Source: Candidatus Fermentibacterota bacterium
GTDB lineage: Bacteria; Fermentibacterota; Fermentibacteria; Fermentibacterales; JCC-6
NCBI GenBank assembly: GCA_014728175.1
Contig: WJMA01000024.1
Location: forward strand, 1 to 52,032
Length of the DNA: 52,032 nt
Direction of reading: 5' to 3'
In this document: piece after piece, positions 8,620 through 13,613 of the stretch
Layout: each line of letters opens with the position of its first letter
Position numbering within the stretch: position 1 is the stretch's first letter
The notes under the pieces: generated by a model
Told to the model about the DNA's origin: nothing
Databases searched by the model: none
Seen by the model: the letters and a program-made list of their open reading frames with translations, nothing else
Program-made: the position numbers and the translations under genes

Positions 8620-8681
8620 ATTGTACACACATGGTTTCCTGAAGGAAATTAAATCAGGGGTTGTGGAAGGATAGATCTGCG

Positions 8682-10535
8682 GTGAAAGAGAGCAGTCAAC
8701 CAATCGTTGCATGGGCTGTTATGGCAGCCATGCTTGTCTTATTCACCCCGGTAGTGCTGGCGGAGGGCAACAGCGAGACCCAGACCGACTGGTCGGGAGG
8801 AGATGGGGTGCCGGGGCCTTTGAGCAGTTGGGGGGACGAATTCGATCACTGTTCCGACATCGTCTATTATTCGACCCCGGGCCAGATCATGCTCGGCCTG
8901 TCCGCAAAAAGCCCGGTTGCTCATCAAGTCGCGGACGGGCAATCGGGGATCAGAAGCGTTCGAGCCGCAGACCTCAGCGGAGACGGTGTCGACGATCTGG
9001 TCAGTTGCAGCTACGACGGTCGTATAGCCTGGTGGGAGAACGTTGGCGGGTCGGGTACCGACTGGTCAATGAACACCATTGACGACCTGTCCGGCGCGGT
9101 GTGTGTATCCACTCCAGACGTCGACGACGACGGCGACTTCGATGTGGTCGCGGTTTCCTACACCCAAGAATCCGTTCATCTGTGGAAGAACTTGGGCGGT
9201 TACTGGACCGAGTTCATTCTCGAAGAGGGCTTCAACGGAGCCAGTTCCATCAGCTACGGCGATATAGACAGCGACGGCGATATCGACCTGGTCGGATCGG
9301 CCCAGTACGACAACGACGTGGTGTGGTGGGAGAACCTCGATGGCAGTGGTAGTAACTGGAGTAAGAGAACGGTTGACTCGGACTTTTCCGGAGCCAGCTT
9401 CGCCGTAGCCTCGGACGTCAACGGCGACGGTAAGACGGACGTAATCGGAGTAAGCTACTGGGGCAACCAGGTATGCTGGTGGAGGAACATCGACGGCTCG
9501 GGCAACGATTGGTCGGAGAACGAGATAGACTCCGGATTCAGCGGAAGCAATTCCGTTTGTGCCCTGGATATCGACGGTGACGGTGACCAGGACGTTGCCG
9601 GCGCCTCCTACTACGGCGACCGCGTTGTTTGGTGGGAGAACAGGAACGGCCTGGGAACGGTCTGGTCCGAGCACAGCGTGTACAGCGGTTTCAACGGAGC
9701 CGATTTCGTGGACGGTGCCGATATGGACGGTGACGGCGACATCGACCTGATGGCTGCCGCTTCGAGTGACGACGAGGTATGCTGGATGGAGAACGTCGAC
9801 CATACTGGCACGGAATGGAACATCCATTCGGTAACCGATGACTGCAACGGGGCGACTTGGGTATGTGCCGCCGATTTCGACGACAACCACAACCTCGATT
9901 TGGCGGCGGCTGCCGCGAATGCAGACCAACTGGTCTGGTGGGAGGTCGTGGGTTATGCCACCGACGGCCAGCTTTACTCGTCGATACTGGACACCCAGAC
10001 CTACGCCAAGTACGAGACCCTGGAGTGGACGTCGGATCAGCCGTTGATGGTGGAGTGCTACTTCCGCGTCAGGTCCTCCAACGATCCCGGCAACATGGGC
10101 AGCTGGTCCGAAGACATTACACAATCGGGGGAACCGCTGGACATCGACGTTGCCAGATACTTCCAGTACCAGGTGCTACTGGAAAGCCCGGACAGAACGA
10201 TAACCCCGCTTTTGAGGGATGTGACGGTTCACTGGACCGATGTCGGAGTGGCGGAGCAGGGCTCTACGCCCGTCAACGGGTATAGCTCCCTGTTGGGAAC
10301 CGCACCTAATCCCAGCCGGGGCAGCTTCGCGGTTAGATTCTCCGTACCCTCCCCGTCCCACGTCACGCTGTTCGTGTACGACTGCTCGGGCAGGGTCGTG
10401 CATACCTCACGAGGCTTCTACCACCGGGGCATACATAGCGTATCGGTGGAAGGCCTTGATGTCGGTGTTTACCATTGCAGGATGGAAACCGATGACTTGC
10501 GCGCCTGCGCCCGTGCGGTGGTACTGGGGGAGTAG
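8682..10535 (+). CDS. Secreted seven-repeat FG-GAP/VCBS beta-propeller protein with C-terminal sorting-like domain (paralogue 3)
   Basis: A 617-aa paralogue of the proteins at 282 and 2223. GTG at 8682 is preferred because GGAAGGA lies 10 nt upstream and it leads straight into a signal peptide (MKESSQPIVAW...LAEG); TTG at 8661 is possible. TQTDWSGG opens the mature part, then seven DxDGDxD repeats with WWEN-like strands, a linker domain (RSSNDPGNMGSWSE) and a sorting-like C-terminus (PNPSRG, YDCSGR, GVYHCR). It is separated from the other two by 4.6 kb and has its own promoter region and a hairpin just after the stop. Confidence 0.85.
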   Translation: MKESSQPIVAWAVMAAMLVLFTPVVLAEGNSETQTDWSGGDGVPGPLSSWGDEFDHCSDIVYYSTPGQIMLGLSAKSPVAHQVADGQSGIRSVRAADLSGDGVDDLVSCSYDGRIAWWENVGGSGTDWSMNTIDDLSGAVCVSTPDVDDDGDFDVVAVSYTQESVHLWKNLGGYWTEFILEEGFNGASSISYGDIDSDGDIDLVGSAQYDNDVVWWENLDGSGSNWSKRTVDSDFSGASFAVASDVNGDGKTDVIGVSYWGNQVCWWRNIDGSGNDWSENEIDSGFSGSNSVCALDIDGDGDQDVAGASYYGDRVVWWENRNGLGTVWSEHSVYSGFNGADFVDGADMDGDGDIDLMAAASSDDEVCWMENVDHTGTEWNIHSVTDDCNGATWVCAADFDDNHNLDLAAAAANADQLVWWEVVGYATDGQLYSSILDTQTYAKYETLEWTSDQPLMVECYFRVRSSNDPGNMGSWSEDITQSGEPLDIDVARYFQYQVLLESPDRTITPLLRDVTVHWTDVGVAEQGSTPVNGYSSLLGTAPNPSRGSFAVRFSVPSPSHVTLFVYDCSGRVVHTSRGFYHRGIHSVSVEGLDVGVYHCRMETDDLRACARAVVLGE

Positions 10536-13256: not shown

Positions 13257-13481
13257 ATGATAGCAGTCCTTACTTTCCTGCATATTTTGGTATCGGTGCT
13301 GCTGGTGGCCGTGGTGCTTATGCAGAAGTCCAAGGGAGACGGCCTTTCGGGAGCCTTTGGCGGCGGAGGAGCGCTAACCGCCTCCTTCGGCTCCAGGGGA
13401 GCCGCAACGCTTCTCTCCAAGGCGACCTCGGTTCTGGCGGTACTGTTCATGATACTGTCCTTCCTTCTGGCTATTCTCTGA
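13257..13481 (+). CDS. secG: Preprotein translocase subunit SecG
   Basis: A 74-aa membrane protein, a typical SecG size. Two membrane segments (about 2-20 and 53-73) flank a Gly-rich loop (GAFGGGGALTASFGSRGAAT), and VVLMQKSKGDGL is the family signature. SecG joins SecYE and assists SecA-driven export in the inner membrane. AGGAAG lies before the ATG. The tRNA-Leu gene starts 4 nt after the stop, the same secG-tRNA-Leu neighbourhood as secG-leuU in E. coli. Confidence 0.97.
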   Translation: MIAVLTFLHILVSVLLVAVVLMQKSKGDGLSGAFGGGGALTASFGSRGAATLLSKATSVLAVLFMILSFLLAIL

Positions 13482-13485
13482 GCCA

Positions 13486-13573
13486 GCCGGGGTGGTGGAA
13501 TTGGCAGACACGCTAGGTTAAGGACCTAGTGGGCACTTAGCCTGTGCGGGTTCAAATCCCGCCCCCGGTACCA
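13486..13573 (+). tRNA. tRNA-Leu with anticodon AAG
   Basis: An 88-nt class II tRNA with encoded CCA. The acceptor stem is GCCGGGG/CCCCGGT (G1-U72 as in E. coli leuU), the T-arm GCGGG-TTCAAAT-CCCGC, and there is a long variable arm. The anticodon stem CTAGG/CCTAG encloses the loop TTAAGGA, so positions 34-36 are AAG. Aligned base by base with E. coli tRNA-Leu(GAG), the same loop positions read TTGAGGT, so A34 is not an alignment slip. A34 would need TadA-type deamination to inosine and would then read CUU, CUC and CUA. A34 tRNA-Leu is uncommon in bacteria, where tRNA-Arg(ACG) is the usual A34 tRNA. Confidence 0.95.
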
Positions 13574-13580
13574 AAAAGAC

Positions 13581-13613
13581 GAGCCGCAGGCCCGCCTCCT
13601 GCGGCTCTTTCTT
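13581..13613 (+). terminator. Rho-independent terminator of secG-tRNA-Leu
   Basis: A perfect 10-bp stem, GAGCCGCAGG/CCTGCGGCTC, has a 7-nt loop and is followed by TTTCTT. It begins 7 nt after the tRNA CCA end. Confidence 0.9.

Follow-up and report, generated by a model that had tools for sequence, protein, structure and literature searches.

A tRNA-Leu gene with the anticodon AAG, located directly behind secG in a genome of Candidatus Fermentibacterota, raises the question of which tRNA reads the leucine codons CUU and CUC in this bacterium, and whether its A34 is converted to inosine. Editing of A34 to I34 in bacteria is usually described for tRNA-Arg(ACG) only, and tRNA-Leu(AAG) is regarded as a speciality of the Bacilli. 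In this study, we concluded with high confidence that the gene most probably encodes a functional tRNA-Leu at the ancestral leuU locus, which carries AAG in place of GAG, is edited by TadA to tRNA-Leu(IAG) and replaces tRNA-Leu(GAG).

The tRNA-Leu gene and its secG neighbor

ARAGORN recognized exactly one tRNA gene within the window, that is, the whole stretch of 52,032 nucleotides analyzed, which is contig 8 of a 2.6 Mb assembly with a completeness of 95.9%. This gene, tRNA-Leu(aag), lies at 13486-13573 on the forward strand and was also matched by Rfam family RF00005 (13486-13570; 54.1 bits against a gathering score of 29); no RNA family other than RF00005 was found by Rfam in the whole window. 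The tRNA is 88 nt long, its CCA is encoded, and the long variable arm places it in class II. Its anticodon loop (13518-13524, forward strand) reads TTAAGGA, corresponding to U32 U33 A34 A35 G36 G37 A38, with the anticodon AAG at 13520-13522. The reading of A34 in the first-pass annotation was thus confirmed, and same-locus homologues in the phylum support the assignment to tRNA-Leu(AAG), for which tRNA-Leu(IAG) is the expected mature form.

The upstream gene (13257-13481, forward strand) encodes the preprotein translocase subunit SecG of 74 aa, which matched TIGR00810 with 82.3 bits (cut-off 30.85) as well as PF03840, and only 4 bases separate its stop codon from the start of the tRNA gene. 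A secG gene with a tRNA-Leu(NAG) directly downstream marks a leuU-type locus, and this arrangement is present here. Behind the tRNA, at 13581-13612 on the forward strand, there is an intrinsic-terminator-like hairpin of 10 pairs, GAGCCGCAGG-CCCGCCT-CCTGCGGCTC (hairpin proper 13581-13607), followed by TTTCTT; the terminator scan found two hits, being one hairpin counted on both strands, against 0.9 expected in shuffled sequences. Given the position of this hairpin, secG and tRNA-Leu(AAG) probably end one transcript together. Elsewhere in the window, visual inspection of a long ORF at 8661-10535 suggested a secreted protein with repeats of the FG-GAP type and a sorting-like domain at its C-terminus.

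Decoding of CUU and CUC in the host genome

A genome-wide tRNA census had been proposed as a check for a separate tRNA-Leu(GAG). All 43 tRNA genes of the assembly were typed, and the leucine set consisted of AAG, TAG, CAG, TAA and CAA; none of the 43 was tRNA-Leu(GAG), and the GAG search pattern gave 0 matches in this 95.9% complete assembly. Only tRNA-Arg(ACG) and tRNA-Leu(AAG) carry A34. In the sampled genes, CUC makes up 21% and CUU 14% of the leucine codons. With no GAG tRNA, CUC can be read only if the AAG tRNA carries inosine or the UAG tRNA superwobbles, and without inosine a fifth of the leucine codons would lack a cognate tRNA.

A candidate enzyme for such editing is encoded in the genome. 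Inspection of tadA, suggested in the first-pass annotation, revealed one clear and typical gene (G000:C16:20956-21408), whose best family match was NF008113 (E 7e-42), with intact zinc motifs HAE and PCLMC (PCxxC). Its score of 142-143 bits lies below the curated cut-off of 150, as do the scores of all TadA proteins in the phylum sample. TadA was present in 33 of 34 further genomes. In the proposed model, this single TadA, with tRNA-Arg(ACG) as its normal substrate, would also deaminate A34 of tRNA-Leu(AAG) to inosine, recognition would be helped by the resemblance of the Leu loop to the loop of tRNA-Arg(ACG), and the resulting tRNA-Leu(IAG) would read CUU and CUC and may read CUA, in place of tRNA-Leu(GAG). 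Transcription of the gene, its role in decoding and the specificity of TadA for tRNA-Leu(AAG) are what we infer on this basis.

An unmodified A34 is the best surviving alternative, and we consider it improbable. The tRNA would then mainly read CUU, and CUC would be left to inefficient A34-C pairing or to superwobbling by tRNA-Leu(UAG). In favor of an unedited tRNA, S. pyogenes tRNA-Leu(AAG) is not edited by E. coli TadA (PMC11472039), which shows that having a TadA does not by itself guarantee competence. However, TadA of S. pyogenes and S. pneumoniae edits tRNA-Leu(AAG) in vitro, with complete editing in S. pyogenes cells (PMC11472039; PMC13249217), and A34 was edited in every case measured in these papers, S. 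pyogenes, S. mutans and O. oeni (PMC11472039; PMC13249217). The excess of CUC over CUU in this genome and the presence of A38, a base contacted by TadA, likewise argue against an unmodified A34. By analogy with these measured systems, editing of tRNA-Leu(AAG) in this genome is very likely.

Slightly less probable still is that the AAG gene encodes a second, minor tRNA-Leu, with tRNA-Leu(GAG) located in a part that was not assembled. The assembly may lack about 4% of the genome, which leaves some room for such a GAG gene; tRNA-Ile(GAT) and tRNA-Ser(GGA) were not found among the 43 tRNA genes either and are probably assembly gaps. A credible GAG tRNA besides AAG was also seen in 2 of 44 named AAG genomes searched whole (judged from the matched sequence) and in one Cloacimonadota genome. 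Against this, the AAG gene occupies the very locus that is orthologous to that of GAG, and no verified GAG tRNA was found in the sampled genomes of the host's own family (f1), where the GAG-pattern matches were not tRNAs according to ARAGORN. Moreover, the extra GAG matches in genomes G050 and G190 lie at the ends of MAG contigs and may stem from contamination. We therefore retain replacement of tRNA-Leu(GAG) by an edited tRNA-Leu(AAG) as the preferred reading.

Recurrence in Fermentibacterota and other phyla

A pattern spanning the D-arm to the anticodon of AAG tRNAs matched 31 of 42 genomes of the phylum, and 28 of the matches retrieved were complete tRNA-Leu(AAG) genes. The carriers belong to family f1 (genera g1, g2, g4 and g5), with a single further carrier in family f3; in the sister family f2, tRNA-Leu(GAG) was found instead in three genomes. 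The same tRNA type occurs in named MAGs from independent studies (Candidatus Fermentibacteria and Fermentibacteraceae); two of these loci have the same coordinates as loci in genomes of the host's phylum (G045 with G041, G080 with G028), which places the window in Fermentibacterota. This recurrence refutes the idea that A34 is an artifact of sequencing or assembly, or that the gene is a pseudogene, an explanation of negligible probability that the intact tRNA fold and CCA also contradict.

In all complete copies with enough upstream sequence, AAG and GAG alike, the tRNA gene follows the end of the secG match by 10-26 bp; one outlying copy lies 84 bp past the secG match, which is shortened there. 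Since both forms stand right after secG, the locus is orthologous and the anticodon was switched. The G34-to-A34 change at the same locus, which had been proposed as the simplest history, holds in so far as the orthologous genes of relatives and of E. coli differ by G and A at this base, but it is incomplete, as base 38 changes too (TTAAGGA in f1 and TTGAGGG in f2). Nor is the change local to one genome, as nearly the whole of family f1 and one further family share A34. One anticodon switch explains the phylum. In the MutS tree, family f2 was firmly grouped and f1 joined f2 with a support of 71/63, leaving the order of f1, f2 and f3 open, so that gain and reversal within the phylum are not told apart and the direction of the switch is not set by this tree.

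A 2026 paper concluded from the genomic tRNA database that bacterial tRNA-Leu(AAG) genes are nearly all confined to Bacilli (PMC13249217). This statement fails when uncultured phyla are taken into account. When named genomes were scanned with a stricter pattern, at least 117 matches were obtained; among the matches listed were Cloacimonadota, Myxococcales, Nitrospirales, Nitrospinaceae, Opitutae, Hydrogenedentes, Seleniivibrio and candidate division TM6, together with Clostridia, Mycoplasmopsis, Rickettsiales and other Alphaproteobacteria, Patescibacteria and the endosymbiont Walczuchella. ARAGORN recognized a complete tRNA-Leu(AAG) at 78 of 80 named loci retrieved. All 93 matching genomes of the 125 in Cloacimonadota have AAG, including the one that also shows GAG. 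By manual row counts, AAG was present in 21 of 145 genomes of the Verrucomicrobiota sample and in 27 of 141 of the Myxococcota sample, most other matching genomes having GAG. The newly seen spread thus extends over the whole of Cloacimonadota and parts of Verrucomicrobiota and Myxococcota; at least eight further groups are represented by single genomes, and these are weaker evidence than Cloacimonadota, Fermentibacterota, Verrucomicrobiota and Myxococcota, as MAG records may hold contaminants. The first-pass view that inosine at position 34 of tRNA-Leu is uncommon in bacteria is right when genomes are counted, but the A34 form keeps recurring, throughout the phylum in Cloacimonadota and in scattered members of many other groups.

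Two further observations were made in these samples. Fourteen Verrucomicrobiota genomes of about 2.2-3.3 Mb, several of them nearly closed, carry tRNA-Leu(AAG) with CTAAGG (including G230, G320, G322, G233 and G242; L315-L321). In two Myxococcota/Deltaproteobacteria MAGs (L331, G079:C8; L332, G074:C60), a segment of about 6 kb contains tRNA-Leu(AAG), tRNA-Arg(ACG), four clustered tRNA-Ser genes and tadA, which brings both presumed TadA substrates near the gene of the editing enzyme; a weak secG match is present upstream.

The anticodon loop, TadA and comparison with known systems

In the search patterns, any base was accepted at 38 and either C or T at 32; base 38 usually, and base 32 often, was found to change with base 34. 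All 35 GAG tRNAs from Fermentibacterota, Verrucomicrobiota and Myxococcota have T32 with G38 or T38 (TTGAGGG or TTGAGGT), and the AAG loops read CTAAGGA, TTAAGGA or TTAAGGG. A38 was present in 28/28 AAG and 0/3 GAG tRNAs of Fermentibacterota, in 8/12 and 0/20 of the Verrucomicrobiota sample, and in 12/12 and 0/12 of Myxococcota; since species are not independent, this is best counted as three phyla in which both states occur, and all three agree. A38 also occurs in 4/4 AAG tRNAs of Cloacimonadota and at 58/78 named AAG loci, the genomes of which partly overlap with the phylum samples. The existence of TTAAGGG lineages means that A38 is not obligatory.

These loops approach that of tRNA-Arg(ACG), the canonical TadA substrate. 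In the host genome, the Arg loop CTACGGA shares U33, A34, G36, G37 and A38 with the Leu loop TTAAGGA, and the loop CTAAGGA of many other lineages shares C32 also and differs from the Arg loop only at base 35. The two tRNAs differ at base 35 (C in tRNA-Arg, A in tRNA-Leu) and in the rest of the molecule, tRNA-Leu being of class II. In the complex of S. aureus TadA, Lys106 and Asn123 contact the C32-A38 pair (PMC3711424), and work on ADAT2/3 likewise describes contacts to A38 (PMC9643335). The natural reading is that changes in its loop may have made tRNA-Leu more suitable as a TadA substrate. Alternatively, the 32-38 pair may tune anticodon strength.

On the side of the enzyme, the suggestion of a TadA with a broadened range is fair, S. 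pyogenes TadA serving as the analogy, but it is not marked by any residue: no alignment column separated AAG from GAG genomes when 23 TadA sequences from the former were compared with 13 from the latter (E. coli included). H57, E59, N46, N127, H128 and F149 (E. coli numbering) were invariant. We consider the arguments evenly balanced on whether TadA editing of tRNA-Leu arose many times across phyla, typically with a shift of the 32-38 pair to the tRNA-Arg(ACG) pattern, its recruitment then running through the tRNA loop and not through one fixed TadA mutation.

If tRNA-Leu(AAG) editing is common among uncultured phyla and extends through the whole of Cloacimonadota, the substrate range of TadA was extended repeatedly. 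These lineages would then offer many natural replicates for the way in which a strict bacterial deaminase comes to accept a second substrate, a step taken much further by eukaryotic ADAT2/3. The surprising part is the breadth across phyla, together with the repeated finding that bases 38 and 32 change along with base 34. TadA is the parent enzyme of adenine base editors, and given this link, natural variants accepting A at position 35 could be of practical interest.

Codon usage was taken from long ORFs, not from annotated genes, on stretches sampled at about 10-200 kb per genome. A rise of CUU within CUY was rejected as a signature of AAG genomes: in Fermentibacterota, CUU is higher in AAG genomes than in their GAG relatives and GUU (Val) shifts likewise, the CUU shift is opposite in direction in Myxococcota and not significant in Verrucomicrobiota, and Cloacimonadota have no clear shift. 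The CUU/CUC shift reported for Lactobacillales is therefore no general mark of AAG genomes.

Compared with E. coli leuU, a tRNA-Leu(GAG) gene that stands directly after secG according to the annotation, as the first-pass annotation had stated, the gene described here shares the secG neighbor and the tRNA backbone. The claim that the rest of the tRNA aligns with leuU position by position is close but overstated: E. coli has the loop TTGAGGT, the lower anticodon stem is CTAGG/CCTAG here and CTACC/GGTAG in E. coli, base 38 is A here and T in E. coli, and the variable arm also differs. The closest counterpart is the tRNA-Leu(AAG)/(IAG) of Streptococcaceae and Lactobacillaceae (PMC11472039; PMC13249217), in which AAG likewise replaces GAG as the only tRNA for CUU and CUC, the other four Leu tRNAs are kept, TadA is present, and a genome almost always has either the AAG or the GAG form, hardly ever both. 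In contrast to that system, the one described here occurs in Fermentibacterota and other phyla, its gene follows secG, no consistent codon shift accompanies it, and its editing is predicted. The mechanism is most probably that of an ordinary, inherited tRNA-Leu(IAG) system of the kind already demonstrated biochemically in Streptococcus and Oenococcus.
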